DNA of 64,000 nt from contig NC_049984.1 of NCBI RefSeq assembly GCF_000003815.2, positions 8,701,342 to 8,765,341 of the forward strand. The letters run 5' to 3'. This document shows, in pieces, positions 9,760 to 46,700 of the stretch. A program made the position numbers and the translations under genes. This DNA is from Branchiostoma floridae (lineage: Eukaryota > Chordata > Leptocardii > Amphioxiformes > Branchiostomatidae). The stretch's first letter is position 1. The number at the start of each line of letters is the position of its first letter. The notes below the pieces were generated by a model. It was not told where the DNA came from, made no database searches, and was given only the letters and a program-made list of their open reading frames with translations.

Positions 9760-12700
9760 ATGGCGGATTGGGATCACATTGGAACGATCGGGGACGACGA
9801 TGACGTCGCGTTAGCTCCAGAGAGCTCCGATAGCGACGAAGATGAGGTAGGATATCGTATCTTATCTTTACAGACATTTTACTCCAAGAAAAGAGAAGAT
9901 TTTAGTCGATTTGACTTGTATTTTTGAGTGAAGAGTGTGAGTTGGTGGGGAGGGGGGCAAGAACGCTTGCTTGCACATGTCGACAGCACACACGTGGTGG
10001 GCAAAATATGTGTATCAAGCCTTGAAACTTCATGACTACTTAAAGGCCACTTGTGAATGCCTTTCTGACGTGTTTTAAACTACTTTAAACTTTAAAGAAG
10101 CAGACTGCTAACGATTTATAGAGTAGAGTGCTGCAGTTGTTTCCATTTGAGCCCTTTAAATATTAGCCTGGCGGGTGTCATCCAAATTCAATGGGGGCCC
10201 CAAAGCCCTTTTCCGTAGAGCGTAATCGGTGGTTTTAATTCTACGTACTACGTAGCGGGACCGCTCGAATTCAACGTAGAGCGTAATGGGTGCATTTTGC
10301 GTCGAGCGATATTGGCTCCTTTAATTTAACGTATTACGTAGAAGCTAACCGGATTTTACCGTAAAACGTAATTCATATTTATTTTTCGAAAAGCGTAATC
10401 AAAGTTTCATTAAACTTATCTTGTCTACCGGCAAATTCTACTCGCGAAAATGCAGGAAATTGCGTTTCAAAGGGTCTAGATTTCAAAATTTCGCCGGACC
10501 TTCCTTGCGATGGCTTACCCATTCGGCATTGGACATGGTGAAAATATGTTGCGGGAGCGTCGCCCCCCAACTAGTAGAAATTTCTTTACCGAACTTAGTT
10601 AACAAGCAAAATGTGCCCCATACTAAATGGAGGGAATGGCATTTCAGAGGGTACGGGTCAAGATTTCAATTTTTCTCCGGGCGCCGGGCGGCCCTTGGGC
10701 TTGCGACGGCTTGGGCCTCTGGTGCTCAAGACTCTCCGGCGCTCGTCGCCCTCAAAAACGTTTCTCTGACAGAAATGTCATTACATTGAGCATATGGTCT
10801 GCCAGCAAAATTTATTTCTCAAAATGCAGGAAATGGTGTTTCAGAGGGTACAAATTTCCAAATTTTCCCGTACCTACCTTGCGACAGTTCGTGCTTTCGG
10901 CACTCCAAATCTGAAAAAGGTGTTTGGGGGCGTTGCCCTCAATAACTTAAAACCATGTGATTTTCTAATTGGAATGCTATTTAACTTAGCTTAGTCTGTG
11001 AGCAAAATGTGCCCTTTTAGATGCATAAAATGGCGTTTCAGGGGGTCAAGATTTCACAATATTCCCGGGGGAGCATACCCCCGGACGCCCTAGGATTGTC
11101 GCGCCTCCACTTTCGGTGCTACAAGTGCTGAAAATTACGTCACATAAGAGGTCATAAGAAATTTGCTGTCGCCGCCTCTGGCCAGCAAGACGTCTAAGTT
11201 AAGTTTGAATCTCGTTGATGGAATTATCAGTTTTGTTTACGTGTGCACGTGTTCTGCCGTCGGCGGATTTCAGCCAAAAGACGACAAAGATTTGCATAAT
11301 GCATTATGAAATTTCTTAATTTAGCGTAGAGCGTAATAAAGTGTCCATAATTTAGCGTATTACGTAGCCGACCCTCCCGAATTTAGCGTACAGCGTTGTC
11401 GGTACCCCCCCTTGGGGGCCCTCTTCAATGTCCCCCGTTTTTACAAACGTTTTGCCGTGAAGCCTTTGCTACCTGAGTATCGTGACCTCAAGTGAATGTG
11501 AAATTGTATCCTGGACACGTCTAAGGACACTCCGCGCTGACATGATCATATGGATGACATCTGCGTACTCATCAATTTTCATCCATTTCCAGAATATGGT
11601 TGCAACCATACTCTAGAGTCTAGAATAAGATTGTACAAAGAAACTGTGCAATGTGCCGATATATATGTTGAAAAAAAGTACAAAGGAATAAATACTATTG
11701 AACACATTTTTGGGGTGTCCAGATCTAGAGGATGTCACCAGTATAATCAAAGCAGTATAGCCTAATTATTATTATATTATGCTATTTTCCATCTAATGCC
11801 ATTTAGAGTGTTGGCTAATGATGATATTTTCAATGTATATTCCATCCAGGTTATACCAAAGCCCAAAAGGAAGAGGGGGAATAAAAAGAAGAATGTTGAT
11901 TTCACGGAGGAGTTCCAGTTTGAGGAGACAGAACTGGACGTGGAGGACAGCTGGAACTATGAGATAGATGGACTGAAGCACAAGGTGCATTAATACTAGT
12001 GGAATTTGTAATGACTAAGTATTGTTGAATATCAGTATAAGGAGGCTCATGCTTCTGTACATGTGTAATGAAATGCATTGTGTATACTATGTTGAAGTTG
12101 GAGGCCCCCAACAAAACACTTCTGGACATGTATCAAACATATCGTCCAGAATCCAGTGGGGGACTCTCTACTAGTTAGGGGCCCTCACCCTTGACCTCAA
12201 GCACTATGTAAATGGAGGTTGTAAAGTTTGTCAAAGTTGTAGATATTTGTGAATGAGTGATATTATTTCAACATGATTTCTTTTCTTATGTAGGCTGTGG
12301 CAACCACACTAGATGAGAAGATAGCACAAATCAGAAAAGAAAGGAAGAAAAGGGTGAGTAAACAATTTGGGAAATATAAAAACGCTGGTGTCAAATCGAA
12401 AACAGCTGGATTGTAAGGCTGATTCAGCTGCATGGTGTTCATAATTCTAATGAAGCATCAAGCACATGCAAATTTGTCTTCTTTGTTTTTTTTTTACCAG
12501 ACAATTCATTAACATCATTAGTTGGCTTGTCAGCTTGTTTCAGACCTAAGGTTCTTATGGTGCTTGTACAATAAGCTACATGTGAGTTGTAATCACAAGT
12601 TTCAATTGAAAGATATATATAACCGTTACATTATGCCATCAGAAACATCAGCAAGTGGAGGGAAAAGAGGAAGAAAGTACAGAGAAAAGACCAGCAAAGA

Positions 12701-22585: not shown

Positions 22586-25500
22586 ATGATGAACGATCCT
22601 GATGCGGAGCGGCCGCGGTCGCGTTCCCAGTCACCCCTGCCACCCGCTTGGTTCGAATTTCTGCTCGATCCTTCGTTGCTGTCCAAACATTTGTCCACAG
22701 AAAGTCCAGGTAAGTGATGGGGGAGGGGGGCTTTTAGCAAAAATTTCGAGCATTGCAGTAGCCACTAGGTTACCATCCAAAGCAGCAGGAATGAGACTAA
22801 CTTCTCCATCGTCCACAGACCCTTCGGCCTCCCAGCTGATCGTCCAGTTCCTTGACCAGGCCACCAGGACCATGGTGAATGAGCAGAACCAGATCCTGCC
22901 TCCTGCCGATAACAAACGTAACCGGGCACTCAGGCACCTGGCACTGCAGGCAGCCGCACACCTGCGCTGGGACCTCAACCAACTGGAGACCAGGTAAAAC
23001 TTGCAGAACACAACTTGTTTATCTACTACCCCCAGAGCTTTAATGACATAAATTGTGGTTAAAAAATAGTGTGACGAAAATCTTGAAGGCTTCATAGAAA
23101 TTTTGATGTGGAACAAATAAGCAGGTTTGAAGATTGCTTAAAATTATTAGAATGTGAAGTTTGCTTCCTCATCGTCGTAGAGATACCGGGGATACATATG
23201 AATATCACCATTGCCTGTTGGGATGAGTCAGCTGCAATGTCGTTAAAAAAAATGAAATTTATTAGTAGATCAGAAGAAAATCATGCGTTGTTATCTCTGA
23301 CAGCCTGTCGAACCATCACACGAATCTGTTGCTGAACGAGCTGCTACGTGTGGCTCGCAGCCCCACGGATGTGAAGCACACGGAGATTGACCTGGCGTCC
23401 ATCCCTGACTACACCACCATCGCACTGGTCCTGTATCACAGATGGTAGGGGGGAACCAACCATTACATTCAGTATAGGGAAAGGGGTTACGTTACACGGA
23501 TATGTTGTGTACAAAATGTATTGCTAGTTCACCTTTATTCGCTGGGTAACTTTTATTCGTTGTATATACAATCGGAGTATTCAGGAATATCAAGTCGACA
23601 GACTGCTGTTTCAGACTGGAATGTTATGAAAAAAATTCAATTTAAAACCAATGTTCATCGACTAGGTATTCCTAAATACATAATTTTAAAAAACAATGGA
23701 TATACGTTGCCATGTGGATAAAGGTGAACTACCGTTACCTCGCTTGAGAAAAAGTGTTACGGCAATTTCTTGACTAGGGTTGTAGATGTAAAATCCACTC
23801 TTAATGCAGCTTGTTCTTATCATAATGCCTAAAGACATTTTTCCAGTTATGTAAACAAACAAATAAGCAAACTATGTTTTATCCTCATTTGTCAAATTTC
23901 TTTTTGCAGACAAAACTCAATGCTCTATCTTTAACAATATTGTCATTTATGTCCTTAACTTGTTTTTTTTTCATCCCACAGGGCCATCCGAGTGGTAGTG
24001 TCCAGTTCTTTCCCTGTCAAACCTGTCAGAACATTTCCTAATAAGTAAGTAACAAAAATTTTCCAGAGGACCAAACTTGTCTTTTACATAATTATACAGT
24101 ATTCATAAAGATCTTACCGATTCTTTCTTAGCAGAAAAGACTATTTCTGACCTTCCCTTACAATTAGAAATTCAACCAATGAAAGAATGGCAATAAGCTG
24201 TTCAACAAATGAAAAACTAGCTGCATGTCATCAAATATTGCATATTTTTGTATGTTTTATTTTAAGTCTATGTTGAATGTATGTCCACAGCATGCTGGGA
24301 ACTGCCCAGGCAGCTGGAGAAATTGCAGAAGCCTTACTGAAGGTGGTAAGTGTGTCTTCTTCACTCGTGTGTATCTGAAAATGCAATTGATTTGGAGTGT
24401 ACTAAATAGTAGTTGGACTAATAGTCCATGCCCCCTGCCAGAAACATTGCTCCCTATCCCTGCCTATAGTTACGCGACCAGTTACCAGACTCATGTATAC
24501 TGGAAGACCGTGTGGCACTTCATTGCCACCTACCAGAAAATATTTACATTGCACCCCTGTCCCTGCCTAGTTGCATGACCAGTTAGGGACTGGTCGATAT
24601 TTAGCGGGGGGGGAGGGCCGGTCGTCAGAGGGTCGGGTCAAAAAATTTTTCGTAGGCCCTCCCCCCCGGTCAAAATTTTTTTCCTAGGCCCTCCCCCCAA
24701 GTCAAAATATTTTTCCTAGGCCCTCCCCCCTCCTATCAAATTTGAAAAATATTCAAGACGCAAATAAATCACCGCGCCCCCGCTTGGAAATATCCTTTAC
24801 GCCATACTGATACTGGTTTTCCGTTTTTAGTCGCGAAGCAGATCTCTTACCCCTAGGAAAAAAGGGAAATTGAATGGCTCGGAGCCCGTAAATATATTCT
24901 TCATGGAGGCTACTTTATTCTTTTGATATTCATAAATGATGCCACTCTACTAGTCCAAACAACATTGCAAAAGTATTTTGTACCTGGATTTCAGCTAGTA
25001 GATTTGCGCCGCTCGCGGCGCGCGCCCCGCCCGGAGCAGCTTGTCGGAGACTATTTTCAAATAATATACATACCTTTGGGACTTGTTGGTTCTGTGGTGG
25101 CAATAACTGACTGTGACTCGGGGGAAAATGCCAACAAAAACGTCAGCACAATGCGACTAACCAAAACTGTAGTGGGGAGGGGGGCGCCGAAGCGTAAGGA
25201 CGATTTTCCCACGGCGGGCCGGGGTCGACCGGTCGCCTTCAGTCTCTACCTCTCCCGGGGCGTTAGAACGCAGACTTCTACTCGGGAGATCTTTTAAAAA
25301 TGCCACGCTTTTTTTGTACATCCATTTTGTCGGTCAAAAATGACGGAATGGGCCTGCACATAGTAGGGATATTGCGATGATTTGAAAAAAAAAATATTTA
25401 CAAAGTGGCACGCCCGCTCGATGTTGCAGCAACATGTTAGCGCGTAAGAAAAGTTCTAAATCAAAAGGCCATTTGTACTGGTGTTCTAGGTGTACTGGCA

Positions 25501-28500
25501 CATGAACAAGCATGACAAAGAATTATGATACTATTTCTTCGGTAAAATTCACTTTTATTCACGATTCTAATTTGCAATGCCTGCAAACTCCGATCGGAAT
25601 CACCCGGAACCTGTACGATTTAAGGCATTTTGACGGGAATTCATTTATTTTTTGACACGTTAGTTCAGATTCTTTTCTCAGTAGCTGTGCCTGTATCACA
25701 GGACTCATGAACTGTCAAGCTTCCGATTTTCATAGTTTTAAAACTATCGACAAAGGAATCGTTTAAGGATGTTTTCCTCCTGGTGCAAACTGTAAACAGA
25801 CGTCACACACCACTCGTCTCCGACGTGACAAAGACACTGCCGCCTCTTGCGCCATTTTTCTTTGATTTGAGAGGCTCGAGCCGTCCACCGCGGCTCCGAC
25901 ATCGTTTCCTCGCGATCTTTGCCAGCCCTGACTCCACCGTTGCCCCTTCTCCTTGTCCCTCAACACTTGTAGTAGAAGCAATAGTTTCCGCGTCATCCAC
26001 TTCTACTTGACAAGTCGACGCCTTGGCGAGACTTGTGTATGTTGTCCAGTCCCAAACATTGCAGTTTCCCGGGTTATTCCCATAGTTCGCGCTTCTTCTT
26101 GGTTGACGTTTACCGCCTTTTTGGCGCCGCAGCGGGCTGTGATTGGTCGCAAGTTAACTCGATTTTACGCACAAAGTGGCACGCCCTGTCCAACCGGTAC
26201 ATCTAAAGACTGCAGCCAAGGCTGTTGCCATGGTAACGACACGTACAACAGCATGTCCTACGTGGGAATCGGCTTGCACACGTCTTGTACTGCGTGCTTT
26301 TGATACTTATGATAGTTCCCAAGCCGAGCACTCGCTGCTAGCTGTACAGGTTACAACAAGGACGTTGTGTAAGATTTTATAATATAGTAGTGGGGAAAGA
26401 GGTGTCCTGTCTGCAAAATTTCAGGTAGCGCAGTGGGTTTAAAATCACGTTGCGCCAAGCAAAATATTCCAAGCCCTCACGATGCGCCAAGCCCTGTGAC
26501 AGTCGTCTTTTTTCCTTCTAAGCAAATTAAACATTGTCGACAAAGATTTTGATCTCCAAACACACAAGTTTGCTGACGATGTACAGCGAGAGAAAGCGAC
26601 ATGAAACGCGGAAAGCTGAATTCACAAGTCTCACCGGCCGTTTCACAGACGGCACTTTGTCGCAAGTCATCTTCCAGAGCGTTCCAAATTATGAAAAAAA
26701 TACGCATTTTCACGTCATTTTTGCGGTAAAATATGAGGAAAATACCGGCATGTGTTGGTGCGCAGATGTTGTGTTGGTGCGCAGATGTTGACTAGATATG
26801 CAAGTACGCTAAATTTTGTCACCGTGACTGAATGGTAGCATTGCAAACCGGAAGTAACGTTATATTTTACGTCGCGTTTTGGTAACTTTATCGGCTTCCT
26901 GCCTTTGCCGCGCCAGCTTCATAAGAAAGGAAAACAAATTTGACTGATATTTTCTCCGCCCACCTCTATTAATACAAGCGTTAAAACGGTAAATGAACAC
27001 TGTAACATTAATATTTTTACAACATTGTAGCGGTGTTAAACAGAGATAGAGTCAAAGGCGCGGCAGTGAAATATTACTGAGCGAATTTTCAACATGTGGA
27101 GCGGCGAGCCACCGGCCTTTTTCTTTATACCATGTCGGGCGCCGAACCTCGGGTGCGAGGCGTCTCAAGCTTGTGGAGGCCCGGGGAAATTTTGAAATCT
27201 TGACCCTCTGAAATGCCAATTTCCGGCATTTTGAGGGACAAATTTTGCTGGTAGTCCGATAAAATTTTTTTTCCTAGGCCCTCCCCCCGGCTCAAATTTT
27301 TTTTCCTAGGCCCTCCCCCCGGCTCAATTTTTTTTTCCTAGGCCCTCCCCCCTCTGACGACCGGCCCTCCCCCCCCGCTAAATATCGACCAGTCCCTTAC
27401 CAGACTCTGTGTGTAACATTCACAATGCCCCCTGTATTCTCCCTAGTTACATGACCAGCTACCCGACTCTGTGTGTACATTGCCCCCCAGTCCTCCCTAG
27501 TTGCTAGACCAGTTACCAGCTTCCTTGTGTATACTGGAGAACTGTGTGAGCCCTGCCCCCTTCACCCACACACCAGAAAGTTTTATCATTTCTCCCTGTC
27601 CTCCCTAGTTATGTGACCAGTTACCCGACTCTGTGTGTAACATTCACATTGCCCCCCAGTCTTCCCTAGTTGCGTGACCAGTTACCCGACTCCGTGTGTA
27701 TCCTGGAGAACTGTGTGAGCCCTGCCCCTTCACCCACACACCAGAAAGTTTTATCATTTCTCCCTGTCCTCCCTAGTTATGTGACCAGCTACCAACTCTA
27801 TGTGTATACTGGAAGACTGTGTGGCACTTCAGTGCTCCCTACAGAAAACATTTACATTGCACTCCTGTCCCTGCCCAGTTGCGTGACCAGTTACCCGACT
27901 CCGTGTGTATACTGGACACTGTATGAGCCCTGCCCCCTTCCCCCCACACCAGAAAGCGTTCACATTGTGCCCACCTATCTTCCCTAGCTACGTGACCAGT
28001 TACCCGACTCTGTGTGTAACATTCACATTGCCCCCCTAGTTACGTGACCAGTTACCCGACTCCGTGTGTATCCTGGAGAACTGTGTGGCTCTGCAGCGCC
28101 CCCTACACCTGCCGACGGTGCAGTCCCTGGGTGATCCTGAGGAGGGGGTACAGGAGGGGGGGCTGCTGCTCAGCACAGAGGATATCACCTGCCAGGTATT
28201 GGTTGAAGCAAAATTCAGATTTTCCTTGACCTATCGTTGAATGGAACTCATTATCACCATGTACAATAGAGACAGCCACTAAATAGCTTCAAATAATGCT
28301 TACAGATACATGTAGATGGCATTGTGCAAGGGTTGCGTAGTTTGTTTGTTTGTTTGTTTGTTTATTGCGATCTCCAATTAGACTTTACAATGAAAATCTA
28401 TTCTTCCTGGAGTCGATTTAAAATTACAGAACAATCAAATAACAGAAGTCAACATAAGTGTACATAAGTATAACATGAGAAGAACTGAAAGTCAACTGAA

Positions 28501-31500
28501 TGTAAAATTGAAGTAAATTCAGTGAACTTAAAATAATGAGGATTGAGTTTGATATAACCAGCTACATACATGCCACATACCTGTGTGTTAGCTAGTGTGT
28601 TATGCTGAAGGGCAGTTGTACAGGTTATACGAACACAGATACTTAATGACAAGACCATACTGTTGTTGTGCAGGTTCAGTATGACCTGGGTACCCTGTAC
28701 TTCCATCAACATGAGTACCAGAAAGCACTGAAGTCTTTCACTTCTTCTTACCAACTTATAAAGGAGGTGGGTATTAGTAATATGTTTGCACTGTGAATTT
28801 CCTCAATATTACTAGATGTTGTCTAGTTACCATAGATGGAAAAAGAACATCTTTGTAATACCATAACATCATGGTAACAGCTTTTTGTGATAACGAGTTC
28901 TAGTACGGTACATAAAAACATGTAACGTTATTTGTGTAGTTATTGTTAATGTTCAAATCTAACCCTCATGTACTATAACAACAAAATCTTTGTGCATGGA
29001 TGTCCCTTTACAAGAGTTAAACAACAGTTAGATATCTTACATTTGTCAAAGTTGTTGTGCCTACTTCCCACCCAGCTGAGCGATCCGATCTTCTGTAAGA
29101 TCGATGTCCCGAAGCTGGAGGGTTACCTGAGTGCATGTCAGGGGCTTGCTGGGATAGCTCCCTCCGTCAAACCTTCCTCCCTCTTCGATGAAGTGGAACA
29201 GTCCAGAAAAAGCAATTACAAGGTAAAGAATTTGCCTAATCAAGCATTTGCAAATAATGCCAAATTTGTCAAGAACTTTCGTCAAAGAAGACGTGAAAAA
29301 ACAAGAATAAAGATTGTTTGGAATACAATATTCTGTGTCCACGTTCAATGTTCAAGGTTTTAAATCATTTGTTCAATCTTCCTGACCACTTACATTTCAT
29401 ACTGAAGGCAACTAACTTTCTTTGCCCAACAGTTTTGGGTGCACAGAGGATGTCATCCATGTAATCAAATCAGTATGCCCTAATCTATAGGACAAATTTA
29501 CCAAACTTTTGAATGGAGAAACCTCGGTATGAGACCAGTTCTGTTCTGTTGCCAGGGTTTACTGGAGCTGCTGGTGAGAGACAACCTGACAGCAGAGGTT
29601 CCCACGTCTTACAGACACTTCCTGGAGCAGGAGCTGGAGAAAAAAACTAGGAAGGAAGACAAGTAAGCAGCGTGGGCCACTGTACATGTAGACTGTTACA
29701 GTTGAACACCTTACTTTGAAATTTCATCTGTGTTGATTAAAGCCATTCTGGATCAAAGTTGAATTGCAATTTTCAACACAAAAATTTCACTTACCCAAAT
29801 TTTTAACTGTCAGATTCCAGTCTTTGTCAAGGAATTAACAATCCGCCGCCTTTGTGATGTCGCAGTATGCAGATAGAACAGATGACTCAGTGAGCAACAG
29901 ATCATAATTACAGTGCAACTTTCATCCAGTTTAACTTGTCATTAATAGAAATTAGTGTATGAAGGTGGCAGCTTTATATTAGTACATATACTTTGAGGAG
30001 GCTCTGCTAAACTGGCTGAGCTTTCCACTTTTGTGGGTGTGGCCTCTGATCAGCTGTCAACCAATCTGTCAGAGAATCACATTAAGGCAATTCTTTGATT
30101 GGCTGACAGCTGGTTAGAGTCAACTTTTACAAAGTGGAAACCTCAGCCTGGTTTAGCATAGCCTCCTCAAGGTATGTATAAGGTGGGAGAAGGCTCTGCA
30201 TAAAAGAATGAAGTTATAAGATTGTAACTACATGTACTTCCTATCAACAGGTTACAGGACACCTGGCTGAAGGTGTGCTGCTGTAATGCAGTATCTAATG
30301 TGGTGCAGGGCCGACCTGTACAGCCCAGCTTCACACACCTGGTGCCACACCTGTCCCAGGATATGGTCCACTTCCTCATCAAGGTTTGTTGTTACCTCCG
30401 TGAAAATGTAGATATTGATGTATTTGGTGTGCATTCAAAGTTACGTGAATATCACAGAGTGGCAGCATGTAAGGCAAAAGTGGTGTAATACGATACTTGA
30501 AGAATAGGAAGTTTGCTTTGGTTCAGGTCCAATGGTGTGGGAGCCATCATGATCTCATGGCTACACCCACACTGTAGTCAGGTATCTACATAGAGCTTGG
30601 TTGTTTGTTCCTTTATTTAGACTTGAATAGTATTCTATTCGGCTGGTGACAACATTGTTTAGCCAATTGTATACAAGGTCACTGAAATGGGACTATTCTT
30701 TCCAATGATACAGATTTGTAAGCAGTCAGTTCATTCCACAGACCAGAGGCAGCATGCAAGGATGGTGGATTTTATAGGGTGAGTTTTCATGCAGAAGAGG
30801 TAGATCATTAAATAGACATCTTTATATTGTAAAGCAAGCCAGCAGCAAAGCTGTTAGGATTATAACCTAGTGTATCAGCCTGCTACTGATGTAAAAAAAA
30901 GGTAATGTTTTCAAGATTGTTTGCTTGTCCTGGTGTGTGTTCAAATTTGTTCCTTCATGAGTTGTAACTGGAGACTGGCAGGATGTGAAGGTTGAGCTGG
31001 CCTGACTCAAATTTTTTCAGTAGGCTGGAAAAATTGAAAGTCAGGAACCCAAAGATGTTATGTGCCATAGAGAGGAGCATGTGATATGTGAAATGAACAT
31101 GGTTGTGTCAGATTTTGTCAAGATACAACATATTTCATGTAGGTATGAGATCTTCTATTTCTTGTTGGATGAACGGTATAGATATAACTAGGATTACATA
31201 ACAATATGTGCCTTTAACATTGTCTGCATACAGACATGTGTTGCGACACATGAGTGGTAGTGTGGTGTTGGAGTCAGTATTGGAGACGTCTAAAGACCTC
31301 CTGACAACACAAGAACTGGAGACCATCAGGGCACAGTACATCCCACAGCAGACAGCCATTCCTAACTACACAGGGGAGAGACCTCACACTAATACAGGTA
31401 TGGACTGGATTGTGGCACTGTTAAGCTAAGGGCACCACCCGCCGTACGTGCATATACGTGCTGTCTAGATGCCAAAATGTGGGCAATCTCCGACGGACTT

Positions 31501-34500: not shown

Positions 34501-37500
34501 TGAGTACTTCAATGTACCTTAATATCTTTCTTGTGTATAGTGGTATCAGTCTTCGTGGACAGTCACCAGCACAAGAGAGGGAGTGATGGGAAGGCCATGG
34601 GCATGATGCAGAGGGACTCAGCTATCTCTCCTCTCACCAGGACAGAGTTCTTGGACTTTCTGAAGAACATTCAGGTGATGAACATGTGTGCTGAACTTCT
34701 AGCATGCCAGCTCAGTTTTTGGCACAGTCACATTTGTCATAACGATAAGTCGTTGTGTGATTATGATGTCGCACAACTTAACCATTAACTTTAGAGTGAG
34801 TTTTCTGACTTTTTGGCATTGCATGTATTATCTTATTCCATGTATACATGTTGGGCAAGTGATAAAAAAGATGATATGAATCACTGATGGTGTTGTTGTC
34901 TGTCTTTCAGGACCCAGTTTGTCTAAGTTTGATGGTCTCCTGTCTTGCTAAAATTATCAACATCTTACAGGTAAGGTCAAAATCTTGTTTGACCTTGTGT
35001 TGCTACCAACATTTAACAGACAACTTTCAGTTTCCTTTAAGTTATAAGTTTGGTCCAGTCACTCTTGATCTTTTTTTCCTTTTTCAGGATGATTCCAACA
35101 AAGACGTCAGCAATGATTATGCCACCCTGTGGCCACAGGGTCTGGGGAAGTAAGTGCTTTACCTCGACATTGGATGGGTTTTATTACCTCTATGAAAATG
35201 GAGGTATCGTTGTCAGTTGGCATGTTTGTTTTTCTTTGTGTGTATCTGCATTGATGTAACGCTAGTTCACCTTTATTCGCGGGGTAACCTTTATCCGTTG
35301 TATTTCACACCAGGGTATTTCGGGATATCAAGTTGGCAGACGGTCTCAAACTGCATTATATTGAAAAAAGCAATTTGAAACCACCATCCATCTACGTGAT
35401 ATCCCTAAATATCTTGTTTTTAGGTAAAATAGATATAGGTTACCCCGCGAATAAAGGTGAACTAGCGTTAAATATTGCAGCTGGTAACCTTCCGGAGTGT
35501 ATGATAGAAATGGTTTAATAGGATACATGGAACATTGGAAGTACGGTTTAGCTCTGGTCCAATGTTGTAGGCAGGCAGGAAAGAAGTGATCAAATGCAAA
35601 TAATTATATGCCATGGTCACACCCACAGTAACTCAGGTCGATAGGGGTACCCACTTAGAGCTTGTTACAATGTTGTTTTAACAGTTGTACCAGTCTCTTG
35701 TTCTGAATGCAGCCAGTGTCTCATTATTTGGTTTTAAAAACAAATAAAACTTTCACTTGCCAGTAACAGTATGTCACCTGTAATCCACCTGTAACACCTG
35801 TTTCAGTCATAAAAACACCCATGTGTCTGATGACTCCGTGGCCCTGGTGCTGAGAGAGTTGTTAGGACATGCCCTGTCTATCAACCCTGGGCGACCTTCA
35901 TGGCTCAAAACACAGGCTGATCTCAGCTATGGTAGGTACATGTACTAAAAGTGACACTTTTGATCTGTTTGTAATAGTTTATACAACACAATTAGAACAA
36001 ACTAAGGACAGACAATACACTCTTCTGTTGATGTGATGCCAAACTCCGTCAGGTTTTAGAAAATTGATAGATGTAACGCTAGTTCACCCTTAATCCGTTC
36101 TGTTGTTTTTAAAAATAGAATATTTGGGATATCAAGAATATTCGGGATATTTCGGGATATCAAGTGGATGGTCAGTGGTTTCAAAGTGCAATATTTTCAC
36201 CGCCCGTCAACTTGATGTCGCCAAATACCCTATTTTTAAGATGAACAGATATAGGTTACCCTTCAGATAAAGGAGAACTACATTGTAGCATTACTAATAT
36301 AATAGATGAAGCATATGTAATTTATGCTGTAACTATCACCAATTTTTTTTTTATTCTAATAGTTCAAGTAATATTCTCTTCCCCATTTCACTACTCATAC
36401 ACATGTACCTCTGCCATGTTTACTCCCAGCTGCAGGCCAGTACTCTGCAGCCCTGCGGTTTTACCTGCAGGCTGGGATGGTCTGCAGTGACTACTTCACT
36501 CACCAGGTGCCTAAGGGAGTGTACGATGAGCAGGTCAGATTACACTTCTGTCCTACAAGTGGTCTCTAGATGTTTTGCCACCAAGACATTTCATCACTGC
36601 CAGGCAAATAGTCATTACTATCTGGATCATTCACCATCACTGCATGGACTTGGACAAACCCAAAAAATGAGCCAAAACTTGTTTTTTGACCAAATCTGAA
36701 AGTCTATACTCTACGCTCTCCCATCAATCTAAGATTTCTTTTACACATCCCAAGAAAGGGGCTTCTACAAGCCTGCCAACCCAGCCATAAAGGCCTCTGA
36801 CCTACTGTTAATGTGCCTGTACAATATGGCCTGGCAGCTGGTTTCACTCTGTAGTTGTGCATGGAAAAAGCCATCTTTGCTTTCTGGGATCAACTGATAT
36901 CTTGGCTTCCTTTGATTCATCTTTTGGCAAGTTAGGGTTATGCAAGGAGGTTCCTTGGTTAATGTTACCATGTGATATGTTGTACAATTTTGTTAGATGG
37001 GCATGATGTTGGCTAATACCTGTAAAAGTCTTGAGTCTTGAGTATTTTTTTCTCATTGACAGGTGTACAAAAGGATGATCAAATGCTGTAAGGAGCTCCA
37101 GTGCCACACTCATGTAAGTCTCCAGCAGGAATGTATTTCAAAACTTATCTTTCAAGCCTTCATAAAGGTAGTTGTATATCTTGTAAGTAAAGCAATACTG
37201 TAATCAACAATTTAGAAGGGAGTAAACTCACATATGACTCCTTCCCAGGTGGCAGTGCTGTGCCAATTTCTGAAGGAAGTGGACTATTCCACAGCTTTCA
37301 AGGTACTGCAGGAGAGAAACAGGTGAGGATGTATTATAAAAAGTGCAGTTCGAATTCAATGTGTATTATATATTTAAGATGAAGAGTAATGTATTTTTGA
37401 CAGCTAGCCGTGCAATGTGGCTTTATTACGGCTCATGTAACTTAGCCATGTACGAGGGGTGATCAATAAGTCCTCGGCCTCACCAAGAAATAACAAGCAC

Positions 37501-40221
37501 AACTCAGATTTTCAGGCGAAACTTCATAGTATGAAGTCTTTTATCAATATCCTCCAAATTTCAAATCATCGGAGTCATTACTTTCCAGGCATTCGTTTTT
37601 TCTAAATTAGAAGGTAAGTGGGGAGAAAAAGAAGGGTGAATTGTGATCAGACAATTTGACCTCACACCTCAGGTTGCAGATCAATTGTCCACCTTTTTTT
37701 TTCGTTATGACTTACCTAACGTTACTGGGTGTCGCCTGCAACATAATGATCACAATAATTTGAATTTTGGTTGAATTTGGGTACACATTAATATAAGACT
37801 TTATACATGTACGGGGGGTTATCAATAAGTCCTCGGATTTACCGAGAAATAATAAGCTCAGCTCAGATTTCGAAGCATAGATGTCAAGTATAAAGTCTTA
37901 TATAAATTTGTGCCAAAATTCAAATTATTGTGATCATTACTTTGCAGGCGACACCCAGTAACGTTAGGTGAGGGAGAAGGAAAAAAACGTGGACAATTGA
38001 CCTGACCTGAGTGTGCGGGTCAATTTGCGCTGCTGGAAGTTAGAAACCCAATTCTTTTTGCTTGAAATAGGAAGAGAATCATTATCAAATATTTTGACAA
38101 TGTCTTTTGTTAATTTACGGCATGGGGAACTCGACCCACACATGTCTGATCACAATTCACACCACTTTTTTCGCGCCACTTACCTTCTAATTTGCAAGAA
38201 ACGAATGCCGGGAAAGTAATGACTCCAATGATTTGAAATTTGGAGGATATTGATAAAAGACTTCATACTATGAAGTTTCGCCTGAAAATCTGAGTTGTGC
38301 TTGTTATTTCTTGGTGAGGCCGAGGACTTATTGATCACCCCTCGTACACTGGGTCACCCCTATTCTTCTCAGTAAGCGTGCTGGTTGTTTAACATGATGG
38401 TGAGACACCTGAAGCTCCCTCATACACAGGGGCCACTGACTTTACGTCACCATCCCAATCTCTCACAACATGTCCGAGCTGGGGCTAACACTGGGGTTGA
38501 ACCCCCGCACTTGGATCCACATAGTTTTAGCCATATGGCCAAATGATAGGGTTGACGTACCGCTTGAGCAATTAGGATATGTATTGACTTTTTAAAAATG
38601 ATTGAAAATGTTTGCTGCATGAGAAAGGTGGGGGAATAAGTGGTATCCTATAATGGTATCTAATATCCTGTTTGAGTGAGTGAGAAACCCATTTCTTACC
38701 TTCCCTGTTCGTTTCAGCTATGATGCCATGGATGATTATTACGACTACTTCTGGGATGTGGATATACTGGAGTATCTTGTCAGTATCCTTTTCAAGTTGA
38801 ATGTGTTACGTTAAAGTACAAACTCAGTTGGTGGTACACTGGTAAGGATGAAAGGTTACAAAGGTTTCCAGGACTGTTCCACCTGTTAATTTCAGTTTTT
38901 CCCTTGTGATTTATTCTCACATGCACAATCTTGGTTTATATTTACTATAATTGTCTTCAAGTGTTTCCTTCACCTACTCTCAGACATTCATACCAAGAAA
39001 GGTGAATTGGACAAGAGACAAGCAGTGGTAAGAAACTTTCTTCTACACAGTTTCCCTTAGAGATGAACTCAACATAACAGCAGGTGTTTCCTTCTAAACA
39101 TCCATGTTTTTATGGATATAAAATCTCCTAAAAAATGTAAAATCTCATCACAGATTAATAAAGAAATGAACCATTTATAATCCAGTAGTTGAGGGGTGCC
39201 CACCATGCAGACCCATTATGGCTTTATTGTTATTATTGGCTTTATTGGTCCATTAGCTGTTATACAAGATGGTACACCGCTAGTCTTGGAAATGATGCTG
39301 ACCTTAGATATGGGTTTCCATTTAAACAATTGCTAAAGCTCCATATCAAGTTACACATCAAAGCAAGAGTGATTGAGGCTGCAAATTGATGAACAGCTAT
39401 TCACACGGACATAACAAACATTATTCTTAGGATGACACCCTGAGATTTCGAACCATCACTTAATTTTTTTGAGGGTTACTGTTATCAAATCTTCACTGGG
39501 ATGATTGCCATGAGATTACATGAGGTACTAGGGCTGGGTACCGGTACAGTGTACTGGTACAAAACCGGTTTTTCTTATTGGACCGGTCGAGAACAACCGG
39601 ACCGAAAAAAATTTGGTGGACCGGATGTTGGACCTATTGGAAAATGAACAGATTATATGATCAGACATTCACACATTTTGGGGATTACCAGTCGATGAAA
39701 ATAACAAGGGCAAAGGAGAGTAGTCTATAGTCATTTCTACCAAGTTTTACAATCATTCGTACAGATGCAGTTAGCCTTGTAGGATTTTATAACGCCAGTG
39801 GGAGTCCAATACTCCACAAAACAGATGTCTTTGTTGCGTAATGGACCATTGCTTTGAGTATCGTCTATTCACAAGTTTTCACATACTAAATCAGGTCCAG
39901 GTTCAGGTCCGGACCTGTACCTAATCCTCTGGACCTGAACCGGACCTGTGCTGGACCTGTACCTGAATCTTTTGTACCGGTACCCACCCCTATGAGGTAC
40001 ACTTTGTAATCAATAATCCAGCAGTATGTAAAGTTAAAACAAGTACCTTTCCCTCACCAACTGTATGAAGTGTTTGATCAGTATTTCTGTGTTGTTGTTG
40101 TCAGCTACAGGTGCTGGGCCAACAGGAGTTGAACTCCAGTAACAGCGAGGATGTCCTGATACGTGCAGCCAACGCCAGGAAGAGCAGATTCTTCCGTATC
40201 TTGTGTAAGATGTATGTTTAG
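22586..40221 (+). CDS. INTS8: Integrator complex subunit 8
   Basis: Part of Integrator, which cleaves snRNA and promoter-proximal nascent RNA and recruits PP2A to RNA polymerase II. Exons: 22586-22709, 22819-22993, 23304-23444, 23982-24044, 24291-24345, 28040-28195, 28674-28766, 29076-29222, 29556-29662, 30251-30383, 30714-30778, 31234-31397, 32170-32303, 32832-32951, 33417-33612, 33987-34108, 34225-34309, 34541-34674, 34911-34970, 35088-35149, 35807-35931, 36430-36533, 37063-37113, 37249-37322, 38718-38782, 38984-39027, 40105-40221. They give 971 aa (human 995), all phases joining. Family marks: WFEFLLDPS near the N-terminus; LIVQFL and NEQNQILPPADNKRNR; SSFPVK; HQHKRGSDG; AALRFYLQAG; and the C-terminal DAMDDYYDYFWDV then KMYV. 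TPR-like helices. Start: the first of two adjacent ATGs. The exon 25 donor (GTATCC) is weak but is the only one that keeps frame. Intron 5 is extraordinary (see findings). Confidence 0.96.
23523..23733. mobile_element. Foldback MITE family R2 (CTAGTTCACCTTTATTCGC arms), copy 1
   Basis: INTS8 intron 3. The ends are inverted: GCTAGTTCACCTTTATTCGC against GATAAAGGTGAACTACCG. The inner arms, ATATCAAG and GGTATTCC, also fold back. Confidence 0.7.
24470..28039 (+). repeat. Tandem array of INTS8 exon 6 acceptor plus exon start
   Basis: Nine intronic units start at 24470, 24571, 27447, 27501, 27609, 27670, 27777, 27879 and 27988; the tenth, at 28040, is the real exon 6. Most begin with CCCTAG or a variant followed by TT(A/G)CGTGACCAGTTACC, which is the exon 6 acceptor and first codons (L R D Q L P D S V C). 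Units are about 50-110 bp. The AG is kept in every unit. The array is split by the element at 24586-27396. Confidence 0.85.
24586..27396. mobile_element. 2.8-kb TIR transposon with TTA duplication (PIF/Harbinger-like, non-autonomous)
   Basis: The termini GGGACTGGTCGATATTTAGC and GCTAAATATCGACCAGTCCC are perfect inverted repeats, extending through a G/C tract to GGCCGGTCGTCAGAGG. They are flanked by TTA at 24583-24585 and 27397-27399; removing the element restores CAGTTACCAGAC of the host array. A 3-bp TTA site is typical of PIF/Harbinger. Each end has several CCTAGGCCCTCCCCCC units, in the same orientation at both ends. The interior is G+C-rich with no recognised transposase. Confidence 0.85.
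28335..28500 (-). repeat. Possible LINE/SINE tail with (GTTT)n
   Basis: INTS8 intron 6. (GTTT)5, then ATTGCGATCTCCAATTAGAC. On the minus strand this reads as a retroposon 3' end with an (AAAC)n tail. The family is uncertain. Confidence 0.35.
29988..30182. repeat. MITE-like repeat with CTCAGCCTGGTTTAGCA arms (copy 3)
   Basis: INTS8 intron 9. Full copy: GAGGAGGCTCTGCTAAACTG on the left, and AAACCTCAGCCTGG then AGCCTCCTCAAGG on the right, with the inverted GATTGGCTGACAGC core. Confidence 0.75.
30388..30620. repeat. Repeat family R4, starting 5 bp past INTS8 exon 10
   Basis: GTTACCTCCGTGAAAATGTA, GGTGTGCATTC, CATGTAAGGCAAAAGTGGTG, GATACTTGAAGAATAGGAAG and CATGGCTACACCC. Its start lies only a few bases beyond the 5' splice site of intron 10. 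A weaker second copy spans about 30900-31080. Confidence 0.65.
31421..31705. mobile_element. MITE with 30-bp TIRs, INTS8 intron 12
   Basis: TTAAGCTAAGGGCAC and CCGCCGTACGTGCA on the left are mirrored by TGCACGTACGGCGGG and GTGCCCTTAGCTTAA on the right. 285 bp, non-coding. Confidence 0.8.
32741..32818. repeat. Near-perfect palindrome 13 bp before INTS8 exon 14
   Basis: TCAGACACAGGTCATACTAA and ACATGATCTG are mirrored by CAGATCATGT and TTAGTATGACCTGTGTCTGA around a 4-nt loop. The arms are about 37 bp with a few mismatches. Confidence 0.85.
33630..33650 (+). repeat. (TTC)n microsatellite just past exon 15
   Basis: A CTT/TTC triplet run in INTS8 intron 15, about 20 bp downstream of the donor. 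Confidence 0.7.
34348..34450. repeat. Half copy of the CTCAGCC MITE (copy 4)
   Basis: INTS8 intron 17. Only the right arm: CTGATTGGCTGAGAGCTGG, GTAGAAACCTCAGCCC and GGAGCCTCCTCATATTG. It begins soon after the exon 17 donor. Confidence 0.6.
35185..35720. repeat. Repeat family R4 split by an R2 foldback MITE
   Basis: INTS8 intron 20. The left part is TTACCTCTATGAAAATGGAG; the right part holds AATAGGATACATGGAACATT, GGCAGGCAGGAAAGAAG and GGGGTACCCACTTAGAG. The R2 element at 35257-35470 sits between them, so R2 inserted after R4. Confidence 0.7.
35257..35470. mobile_element. Foldback MITE family R2, copy 2 (best arms)
   Basis: TAACGCTAGTTCACCTTTAT and CGCGGGGTAACC are mirrored by GGTTACCCCGCG and ATAAAGGTGAACTAGCGTTA. 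The inner ATATCAAG and GTGATATCCC blocks also pair. 214 bp. Confidence 0.85.
36074..36293. mobile_element. Foldback MITE family R2, copy 3
   Basis: INTS8 intron 21. It starts TAACGCTAGTTCACCC and ends in a diverged AAAGGAGAACTAC with GTAGCATTA. The middle carries a duplicated TTCGGGATAT unit. Confidence 0.7.
37453..38344. mobile_element. Mariner/Tc1-type foldback element (892 bp)
   Basis: INTS8 intron 24. CGAGGGGTGATCAATAAGTC and its inverse GACTTATTGATCACCCCTCG are flanked by TA at 37451-37452 and 38345-38346. Nearly the whole element folds on itself: CACCCAGTAACGTTAGGTGA pairs with the left-arm TTACCTAACGTTACTGGGTG. A second terminus-like GGGGTTATCAATAAGTCCTC lies inside near 37815. No transposase remains. 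Confidence 0.8.
38390..38565 (-). repeat. Possible tRNA-derived SINE fragment
   Basis: INTS8 intron 24, next to the mariner element. GGGTTGAACCCC followed by CCATATGGCCAAATGA looks like a reversed tRNA B box/A box arrangement. The ends are unclear. Confidence 0.35.
39529..39992. mobile_element. hAT-like non-autonomous element, copy 2 (464 bp)
   Basis: INTS8 intron 26. Starts TAGGGCTGGGTACCGGTAC and ends GTACCGGTACCCACCCCTA. Perfect 8-bp duplication TGAGGTAC at 39521-39528 and 39993-40000. Same interior as copy 1 (ACCGGTTTTTCTTATTGGAC). Confidence 0.85.
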
Positions 40222-40355
40222 TGACAACCCAGCAGAGGACATTTTTGAGGTGCAAAATATGACATTACAGGAAGCTACAAGAAAACGTACGGCAACAGGA
40301 CTATGGATAACTTTGATGGCAATTGACTGATCTGTGGATGGTGGATAGCAAGTTA

Positions 40356-40933
40356 CGAGGGGCGTGCAATAAGTAATGGTCCTGACCCACTTCCAGTTGT
40401 CTGATCTAAATGAAATTTTGTATGTGTAATAATTCATATCTCTATGGGTTATGTTGCAAAAGACAGCTCTGAACTAATTGTGGTTTCTGATTTACTGGTG
40501 TTTGAACTTAGTCAGGTGCGAAATGGACCAGGTGTGAAATGGAACCAGTCGAGTGTCGCGCAGTGATCCGGTTTTTGTATTTGAAAGGACGCACACCAAA
40601 GAAGACTTTTGATGAAATAAATGAAACTTATGGTGATGATGCCCCATCATATGACCTTGTAAAACGCTGGCATCCTGAATTCAAACGTGGCTGGAAGTCT
40701 GTGGAAACAGCTCCCAGACCTGGTCGTCCCTCTTGTGCCATTGATGAGGCATCAGTTGGAGGACCAACCTGGGGTGTCCTACAAAATCGGTGTCCAGAGC
40801 TGCATCAAACGATGGGAGAAATGCATAACTCTGGGTGATTCCTATGAAGAGAAAGACTAATAACTGTGCCAAGTTTCATTAATCTCCTGCTATGGGAAAT
40901 GGGTCAGGACCATTACTAATTGCACGCCCCTCG
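40356..40933 (+). mobile_element. Internally deleted mariner just past the INTS8 stop
   Basis: The inverted ends CGAGGGGCGTGCAATAAGTA and TAATTGCACGCCCCTCG are flanked by TA (40354-40355, 40934-40935). Inside, 40539-40838 encodes about 70 residues of a mariner transposase N-terminal helix-turn-helix region (YLKGRTPKKTFDEINETYG, YDLVKRWHPEFKRGWKSVE, RPGRPS); then the frame is lost. The DDE/D catalytic part is absent, so the copy cannot mobilise itself. It lies about 130 nt after the INTS8 stop, so it probably sits in the 3' UTR. Confidence 0.85.
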
Positions 40934-41184
40934 TACACATTTCCAATAAACGCCATTAAAAATTCAGTTGTTTTTTAGGCACAGGAATCATATCCTCCCT
41001 TGTTGCCCCAAATCCTAGATATCTAAAGTGTACAAAAATACCTCCATTGCCAATCAACACTGAAGACCCACCATGCATACAATAAATTTTCATGTAGGTA
41101 ATAGTGTTGTTTCTTTTTTTCTCTTCTGGTGGTACATAAGGAAAACAACTTCTTATTACTGTGCAGTATTATGACAGCATACCA

Positions 41185-43727: not shown

Positions 43728-46700
43728 TCAATGCTTGTTCATGACAATGTCTTTTAGAGTCGGACCACTGTTGACATCGATGCCTTTGGCTGCAACTTCG
43801 TGTAAGATGGCTTCCCAGTCTTTCTTGTCCTTGCCCAACCTCCAGCACAAGCTGATGTGTGCCTGCAGCAGTGGAACCAGGAAGCTGTGATGGAGGTAGC
43901 CTTTCACACAGTTCAGCGCTGTTTCAGAGTATGTCTGGGCGTGCCACAGTTCATCTAATGCCTCGTAAGCCACCACGATTGCGCAGTGTGTCTGTAATAC
44001 TGTGTCATGGGTCTCACCCAGCAGTTTCTCCTGTAGGTGCAGTGCATTCCTTAGTGAGGGAATTGACTCCTTGTAGAGACCGGCACGGATCATTGCGTAC
44101 CCCTTCCTTATGTCCTCAAGATAGAAGAAGTCTAAAAACTCGTGGCAGGTGGCTACTTGTGGAATAGAGTGTAAGTGCTGGAGGTATTGTTCAAAGGCCC
44201 GGCTCCTCTCCGCGATCGTCTGGGTCTTGAAGTTTCCCGTCAGAGTCTTCTTGGGAAAGGCGACGCTTTCTAGGAGGTGAGGAAATCTCTTGCGAAGACA
44301 CTGGTTCAGTTTGTCGAACTGGCTGTAGCGTTTCTCGATGAAGGCTGGTGACGTGTCCAGACCTGGACTCTTAACCACGTGGACTTGGTAAACCTGGAGA
44401 AAGAAAACAATTCAAATAAGGCTTTTTTTATTTTATTTATGAACTTTCAACATGCAAAAGAAGTATGTTTAGAACAAGCAAAACCATACTTCCAATTCTC
44501 CAAGTATCATATTACACCACTTCTGTCTTACATTCTACAACTATATAGATTGTAACATTCACATAACTGTGGATGCACAGCAAGACAAACAAACAAACTG
44601 ATAATGATACCCCTGTTTTCACAGTGGTAAAAATGCTACAATTACCTGCATGTATACTTTGCAGGTGCATTGAATTAATATATGATACAAAATAATGTTA
44701 GTGATGTTAAATCCTTACATAGCAGAGCAAATTGCATCTACAACCAATCTTTGTGATTGGCTACCTACCACATATTTGGAATGTCCCTCCTTCACTGTCC
44801 TGGCATTCATGACTTCAAACACTATCCTTTCCTGGGCGTGCCTTCCCCCACCCCCACCACCGCTGCCTCCCCTGGGTTTCCTCCCTGGGGGATGATCCTG
44901 GTGGGGTTCTTCAGCTGGGGGATACACAAAATGTAAGGTGATTTCATTCATGAGTTTTTCTTTTGTATTGTGGGCAATAAAAAAATACACATGTCATACA
45001 TACTCTCCAAGCAGAGGTTAGGCTCCGGCTTCAGGCATTTTTATCTGACTTTCTATTTTGAACCTTTTCTTTATGTCTCACAAAATGGTATAAAATAGAA
45101 AACCCGATAAAAACGTCTAAAAAACGGCCAGAGCCTAACATCTGCTTGGAGAGGTACATGGGTGTGGGCCATTCTACCGTGGAACCAGGAACTGGAGAAA
45201 TGTTACAATTTCGCTTTTCTACATCTACTTGGGGAACTACTGCTGACTTTCTAGTATCAAGGTATTTTTTTAGATGTCAAATCAACCACCTGTCTTTCAA
45301 TGTAAATCCCTAGCCAGAAATACTGTCATGTTTGATGAAACAAGGTGACCATGAACAGAAATAGGGACAAAAAAAATAAAGATGAAATTTGTGACCATTA
45401 GACACCTTGGATAGCCAGTTTAATTTGTTTTGTATGTGCTGTATTATATGATTGTAATGGCTACCAAATACAATGTAATTAATGACTACACAAAACAAAT
45501 GAATTTTCCTAGAGCAGCCAAGTGTAAGCACTTTACGATCACAAAAGAGCCTACTAGAATTGCAGATATTAGGGAGACATACAGTTCTTTAGACACACAA
45601 CAGTATTTATCCCACATTATCAAAATGTGTACATTCAAAGAATTCTGCAATCTACAAAACAATCTAGGACAAGGCTAATTCAAGACCCAACACAAGCACT
45701 GACCTTTGAGTTTTTACACACTCCAGTTGTGGTACCTGTACAACACCTTATTCACATTACAACCATATTTGTCCACGTCTACATGAGAATATCATGTAAA
45801 AGATGGCATCATATGGTACGACAGATTCTCCTTCAGTACCAGAGAAATTACAATGGATGTCACATGTATGGCAACCTACGTATGATGCCTTATGCCTTTA
45901 CAGAGTGTTATTATACTGAGAGATGGTAATGCACAGGAAGCGAGAGGGGCATGAAATCTTACTATGGTAACCATATTTGGTAGTCTTTTCATCTGGTGAG
46001 CCTTAGGCTTAACTGCTTTCAAAAGCAACAACTCACTACGCCATTCAATGGCATGCAGCTTTAGGCTAAAGGTCATTTACTGTAATAAATTTAGTTTCTC
46101 AGAGGTTTCATATCCCGTTAAGGGGGAAAGGAGACTTTCATGGTGTTTTATATCTGCAATAATCATACAAAGGAGACATGTCACTTGGGAGATTGCGGTG
46201 GAGAGGGCACTGTCAAAATAAAGCTGCCACAAATGTTCCCAGATTAAGTTTTACTCCTTGTGTGCCATTGAAGGAGATTTAAAAAAAAACGAGTACCACA
46301 TTAGAATTTCTGGAGCAATTTTTTTAAAATTTCTAATATTATATAGCTTGGGGAATCATGATATACTTCTACTCATAATATGTATGGGCCATCTGTAAGG
46401 CTTAGTCAGCAAAAATCTCAAATGTGTCCTATCCTCTTTTTTTAAGAGCTTACATGTATGCAAAATAACTTAAGATGACAGGATTAATGAGAAAACTGCA
46501 AAGTTTTGACAGGCAGTTGCCAAGAAGCAAGGAATTTCATTACAATGGAGAAGATGGAAGATTAATTTTCACTGGCCTTGCTGCCAAGACTTTCATTTCC
46601 CTCCACACAGAAAGGAAATAAAGTCACCTAAGGTCAACTTCCTACTCTGGCTTCAATTGCCTGATGGGTGAAAGTCATCACAATAACAGGCATTATGCCT

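Follow-up and report, generated by a model that had tools for sequence, protein, structure and literature searches.

In this study, we analysed a tandem array of copies of an exon start in intron 5 of the INTS8 gene of the lancelet Branchiostoma floridae, located in a 64,000-nucleotide (nt) stretch of genomic DNA (assembly GCF_000003815.2, contig NC_049984.1, positions 8,701,342 to 8,765,341 of the forward strand; the whole stretch is called the window here, and positions refer to it unless a locus is named). We are confident that the array is a neutral mirage, i.e. a local tandem duplication whose unit straddles the junction of intron 5 and exon 6, and it most likely has no function. As mirages, the available text of two papers describes lancelet minisatellites that duplicate intron/exon boundaries, with Adh3, the globin genes BflGb6 and BflGb9, TnC and PGBD5 as examples (PMC3087553, PMC3902484). 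The INTS8 array is such a lancelet mirage. The phenomenon is already published in these papers, and what is added here is the INTS8 case itself, as one more gene beside the few for which their available parts name mirages (PMC3087553, PMC3902484). A search of the open-licence full-text literature for INTS8 together with "mirage" gave none among the matches listed.

The exon 6 boundary and its upstream copies

The assignment of the host gene to INTS8 made in a first-pass annotation of the window could be confirmed, with exons 1-10 of our hand-built gene model matching PDB chain 7cun_H, named Integrator complex subunit 8, at an E value of 3.6e-87. We take this chain to be the human protein. The alignment is unbroken over the exon 5/6 join, leading from the terminal KV of exon 5 to LRDQLPDS at 28040, and because it passes directly from exon 5 into 28040, the exon 6 at this position is the real one. 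Its acceptor reads CCCCCCTAG in phase 0, and its donor side ends at 28195. The protein alignment across the join also supports normal splicing of exon 5 to 28040, as predicted from the sequence. Gene identity is drawn from exons 1-10 only. Further downstream, the join of exon 10 to exon 11 (30384-31233) breaks the frame, which therefore points to a missed exon or an assembly error in this interval, and the model past exon 10 is less certain. The exons past 10 were still used as splice edges in the BLAST of edges, the scoring of donors and acceptors, the edge survey and the pairing of transposon donors described below.

The repeat unit spans the exon-intron boundary and comprises the end of intron 5 together with the start of exon 6, in tandem. 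All ten starts that were checked, namely 24470, 24571, 27447, 27501, 27609, 27670, 27777, 27879, 27988 and the real one at 28040, are preceded by AG, so that the nine copies of this acceptor reported upstream of exon 6 in the first pass are all real and the AG is retained in 9/9. Mirages are characterised by a boundary-spanning tandem unit and by AG or GT splice signals kept in many copies, and both features were found in INTS8. The motif CCCTAG had been reported for every unit; of this, the AG is universal, while the preceding bases vary, with CCTATAG at 24470, GCCTAG at 24571 and GCCCAG at 27879.

From the alignment, two unit forms could be distinguished. Five units are of the long form of 101-109 nt (24470, 27501, 27670, 27777 and 27879), in which up to about 68 nt of exon 6 are copied and lead into an intronic tail that contains a pyrimidine tract. 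The four short units of 52-62 nt (24571, 27447, 27609 and 27988) contain about 31 nt of exon, corresponding to about 10 codons, and an earlier figure of roughly 12-16 copied codons per unit is too high for these four. The upstream units are 65-96% identical among themselves, and several carry frameshifting gaps in the alignment. The unit at 27670 had been singled out as close to the true exon, which was borne out (unit 6 in Table 1). A repeat finder reported nine copies of a 26-nt core over 24467-28062, counting the copy in real exon 6 and missing the split unit at 24571, and a higher-order repeat of 169 base pairs (bp) was observed around 27439-27809.

Segments at the splice edges were additionally compared with the window by BLAST, accepting E values up to 1e-4. 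Seven further matches, with a best E of 5.6e-25 and all within the array, were obtained for the 70-nt segment at the exon 6 acceptor. None of the remaining 49 INTS8 splice edges had a match in the window, so there is no second mirage within the INTS8 model. The repetition exceeds what chance would give: in a control, at least one same-strand copy within 4 kb was found for 44 of 1,487 random 70-mers of the window; ten random 70-mers had six or more copies, every one of them located at 27405-28008.

A transposon within the array

The interval 24470-28195 had been described as one array, which does not hold, since 24586-27396 is a DNA transposon of 2,811 bp, apparently non-autonomous, that splits the unit starting at 24571. 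A continuous array of 3.7 kb is thereby ruled out: because this interval is transposon, 2.8 kb of the 3.7-kb span are not array, and the true repeat content amounts to about 0.85 kb. The inverted ends of the element are identical in 47/47 nt, with a TTA triplet on either side. The insertion point lies 15 nt into unit 2, which resumes at 27400, and because the transposon landed inside this unit, the array predates the insertion.

PIF/Harbinger elements duplicate a 3-bp TWA target and have inverted repeats at their termini; both features were found for the insert, which in its terminal inverted repeats and 3-bp TTA duplication resembles the non-autonomous elements of this family. Judging by the TTA target site and the inverted ends, we take the insert at 24586-27396 to be PIF/Harbinger-like. 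Four of its open reading frames (ORFs) have no Pfam match, so no transposase was found in these four, and the family placement is only suggested.

The transposon was compared with 59 sequences (347 kb with the window included and L001-L005 left out). The only matches outside the element were to a portion of its inner segment (about 2539-2672 of 2811), and they lie elsewhere in the window and in four further loci (L018, L021, L026 and L032). Repeats of the window at 10447-11069 resemble the interior of the transposon at about 27177-27257. The T-rich subterminal repeats hold acceptor-like CCTAG motifs at 27278, 27310 and 27342, with scores of 5.0-6.5.

Comparison with published mirages

In the available parts of the globin paper, BflGb6 and BflGb9 likewise display tandem copies across the intron/exon boundary, many of them with intact splice signals, and BflGb6 shares the acceptor side with the INTS8 array (PMC3087553). 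The globin unit measures 150-160 bp, compared to 101-109 and 52-62 nt in INTS8, and 6 and 3 units are given for two haplotypes of BflGb6, compared to nine upstream units in the one INTS8 assembly (PMC3087553). According to the available text of the second paper, PGBD5 carries similar boundary repeats, and Adh and TnC are cited there (PMC3902484). These copies are imperfect, as in INTS8, and have unit lengths near both INTS8 forms; however, the 5' and 3' splice sites are both involved in PGBD5, in contrast to the 3' site only in INTS8 (PMC3902484). For the Adh3 mirages (Canestro et al. 2002, as cited in the available part of PMC3087553), a unit of 10-72 bp and duplicated boundaries are given, in both of which they resemble the INTS8 array. 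Somatic instability is reported for Adh3 as well. A transposon interrupts the INTS8 array, whereas none is mentioned for the globin mirages or the PGBD5 repeats in the available parts of the respective papers (PMC3087553, PMC3902484).

With regard to splicing, it is suggested in the available text of both papers that normal splicing is kept at mirages (PMC3087553, PMC3902484). In the globin paper this is based on its own reverse-transcription PCR together with the Adh3 data, and the same paper notes that cryptic mirage sites could yield aberrant transcripts (PMC3087553).

Splicing potential of the upstream copies

The copies were scored with an acceptor matrix built from 24 other INTS8 acceptors, on which the real exon 6 acceptor reaches 2.2 and the nine upstream copies range from 1.1 to 5.9. 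Some of the results weigh against a neutral array. Eight of the nine copies outscore the real acceptor, and a branch-point-like motif (yTnAy) is located at -24 to -26 in 7/9 copies, compared to -15 for the real acceptor; from these scores and motif positions, splicing silence of the copies is therefore not obvious from sequence. Furthermore, the distinct differences between units and exon contain an excess of synonymous changes (13/28; p 0.015 unweighted and 0.059 with transitions weighted twofold), a borderline result that would follow if some of the divergence arose in the selected exon and that is compatible with past coding use too. For this count, gaps were ignored and each distinct change was counted once; alignment to the exon ends at exon position 48 in units 4, 6 and 8 and at position 31 in the short units, of which there are four, and anything past these points was excluded. 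The copies can be regarded as plausible acceptors, and the earlier proposal of competing acceptors stands as far as acceptor-like scores are concerned; together with the modest synonymous excess, these scores leave room for what might be a weak splicing effect.

In a rival reading, the array would be a splice regulator, with copies competing with the real acceptor, giving rise to early-stop messages, and with unit number tuning INTS8 output. The higher scores of the copies would favour such a role, and so would the reading from each copy toward exon 6, which meets a stop in 9/9 cases after 15-105 codons; in the case of units 1 and 2, which start to the left of the transposon, it stops at the transposon junction or within the transposon. 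Unproductive splicing via the copies is possible on these grounds. However, AGs reaching the score of the real acceptor are common, amounting to 33/136 in the transposon (24610-27396) and 103/599 inside other INTS8 introns, with 10/32 elsewhere in the array, and, according to the available parts of both papers, splicing is probably undisturbed at the published lancelet mirages (PMC3087553, PMC3902484). We consider a regulatory role quite improbable. A more elaborate variant would be a length-variable dial, in which the stronger copies would divert a share of transcripts to stop-bearing messages, the working acceptor would itself have been replaced by an array copy in unequal exchange and the number and order of units would set INTS8 output between individuals; we judge this to be very improbable. 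At the level of RNA, the region 27400-28120 shows no special fold (z 0.62, with 14/20 shuffles folding at least as well), so that a special RNA structure of the array was rejected.

In the first pass, the units had also been proposed to be cryptic in-frame micro-exons. The unit at 27670, which reads LRDQLPDSVCILENCV, is indeed exon-like, and the slight synonymous excess would agree with coding use. However, the top donor-like score in the array is 2.5, compared to 4.6 for the lowest authentic INTS8 donor (leave-one-out), and no donor-like site reaching 4.6 is present from the right of the transposon up to the donor of exon 6 itself. The transposon contains eight donor-like sites with scores of 4.7-6.5, and among their 16 pairings with units 1 and 2, none is both in frame and open. 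The frameshifting gaps of several units argue against micro-exons as well. Taking the weak donors, the failed transposon pairings, the stops and the Integrator subunit 8 alignment, which goes from exon 5 to 28040 without a gap, into account, in-frame micro-exons were rejected, and we give them hardly any credence.

Boundary repeats elsewhere in the genome

Two exon families were surveyed for boundary repeats in the B. floridae genome. A globin-domain search yielded nine exon loci, two of which carry such repeats: L017 on the acceptor side, with spacings of 150-158 and a locus that contains three copies ahead of the real exon, and L013 on the donor side, with a spacing of 157. They fit BflGb6 and BflGb9, respectively, by side and length. 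The globin loci were chosen for their known mirages and thus constitute a positive control, not a rate.

For the Ras family, 26 exons were hand-picked roughly down a list of 150 matches, with one lower row added. The sample excludes the first 11 rows, rows with an internal stop and a minimum of three open rows that lie close to others, one of them from C4 and two from C19; L039 and L051 overlap, being neighbouring exons. Acceptor-side copies, read by eye as CAG plus the first exon bases, were found for 3/26 exons (L039, L040 and L056), all three among the first 20 loci, with a further six loci lacking any. We take L039 to be Rab11-like, L040 Rab9-like and L056 Rab5-like. The available parts of the two mirage papers contain no mention of these three (PMC3087553, PMC3902484).

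The edges in the Ras and globin sets are ends of protein matches and not proven splice sites, and flank points may therefore include some coding bases. Local direct repeats cover 3/52 Ras exon edges (95% interval 1.2-16%), compared to 83/1,534 flank points near the same exons (Fisher p 0.76) and 2/497 exon-interior points (p 0.007), with a required overlap of 10 and 15 nt for an edge and of 15 and 15 for a point, so that the edge rule is slightly looser. Over 23 stretches of 10 kb, comprising 20 random ones from five contigs and 3 at or adjoining the window, 393/11,306 points (about 3.5%) lie in local direct repeats. For INTS8 the count is 1/50 edges, the gene having been chosen because of that one. 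Given the clustering of the points and the small number of loci, the edge rate is a first estimate, and it counts against our interpretation that this rate is derived from three events in a hand-picked sample with non-independent survey points.

One could suspect a mechanism that targets exon boundaries for tandem duplication, which would make mirages a special class, in view of how common boundary repeats are (the 3/26 Ras exons) and of their orientation, five of the six counted being acceptor-side. However, the edges are no richer in repeats than the flank, and the preference for acceptors (5/60) over donors (1/60) is not significant (p 0.21), for which reason an acceptor-side bias was dropped. 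We regard boundary targeting as highly improbable: because edges and flank have about the same repeat share and interiors a far lower one, boundary copies need no special targeting, and local duplication of the ordinary kind would suffice where it runs across an exon edge. If duplication is equal at intron and edge and the exon interior is protected by selection, boundary copies are therefore expected. The first-pass annotation had reasoned that an ordinary minisatellite should not be in register with a splice boundary. This argument falls with the similar repeat share of Ras edges and flank and with the fact that no point of a tandem array is intrinsically its start, so the AG seems its frame only when read from the exon.

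Proposed origin of the array

We propose a model in which the INTS8 mirage grew by slippage or unequal crossing-over, with copies piling up only on the intron side, as selection would remove insertions within the coding exon. The units were probably exchanged in the past, in an array that predates the transposon. The present position of the real acceptor, where a short unit ends, suggests that such exchange also ran through the splice site in use. The spliceosome would normally pair exon 5 with 28040 and use the exon 6 donor at 28195, while stray use of an upstream copy would lead to a message with an early stop. Beyond INTS8, the Ras survey suggests that tandem duplication commonly yields mirages as a by-product, with selection on exons acting as the filter and no special boundary mechanism. 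Mirages can also serve as natural test beds for the choice of the spliceosome among near-identical acceptors and for models in which introns arise through tandem duplication.

Table 1. Coordinates of the array, the transposon and the adjoining INTS8 exons in the window, and of the acceptor mirages in three Ras-family genes.
Feature	Position	Strand	Basis or remark
INTS8 exon 5	24291-24345	+	splice sites and homology to Integrator subunit 8
Partial tail of outermost unit	24427-24469	+	alignment; left end approximate
Unit 1, long form, 101 nt	24470-24570	+	alignment
Unit 2, short form, first part, cut by transposon	24571-24585	+	alignment
Target-site duplication TTA, left	24583-24585	.	
DNA transposon within unit 2, 2,811 bp, apparently non-autonomous	24586-27396	.	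inverted ends and TTA duplication
Left terminal inverted repeat	24586-24632	+	
Subterminal 32-bp repeats, 3.0 copies	24636-24730	+	
Subterminal 32-bp repeats, 2.8 copies	27262-27352	+	
Right terminal inverted repeat	27350-27396	-	
Target-site duplication TTA, right	27397-27399	.	
Unit 2, short form, remainder	27400-27446	+	alignment; 62 nt with first part
Unit 3, short form, 54 nt	27447-27500	+	alignment
Unit 4, long form, 108 nt	27501-27608	+	alignment
Unit 5, short form, 61 nt	27609-27669	+	alignment
Unit 6, long form, 107 nt	27670-27776	+	alignment; 86% identity to real exon over 71 aligned nt
Unit 7, long form, 102 nt	27777-27878	+	alignment; nearest is unit 1 (88%)
Unit 8, long form, 109 nt	27879-27987	+	alignment
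Unit 9, short form, 52 nt	27988-28039	+	alignment; its end is the working exon 6 acceptor
Real INTS8 exon 6	28040-28195	+	repeat family and homology; about the first 68 nt (to 28107) common to array
Acceptor mirage, Ras-family gene L039	133-366		
Acceptor mirage, Ras-family gene L040	52-409		
Acceptor mirage, Ras-family gene L056	489-850		

Further features of the window

The introns of INTS8 hold large inverted-repeat elements resembling miniature inverted-repeat transposable elements, at 37449-38348 with arms that are 96% complementary and at 35254-35473 with 79%. A Mariner-like remnant at 40354-40937 has 65-nt inverted arms (82% complementary) and, in an ORF located just beyond INTS8, a Mos1-type helix-turn-helix domain (PF17906). 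On the minus strand, an ORF at 43728-44411 contains a PX domain above cut-off and a weaker tetratricopeptide repeat match, and is presumably sorting-nexin-like.

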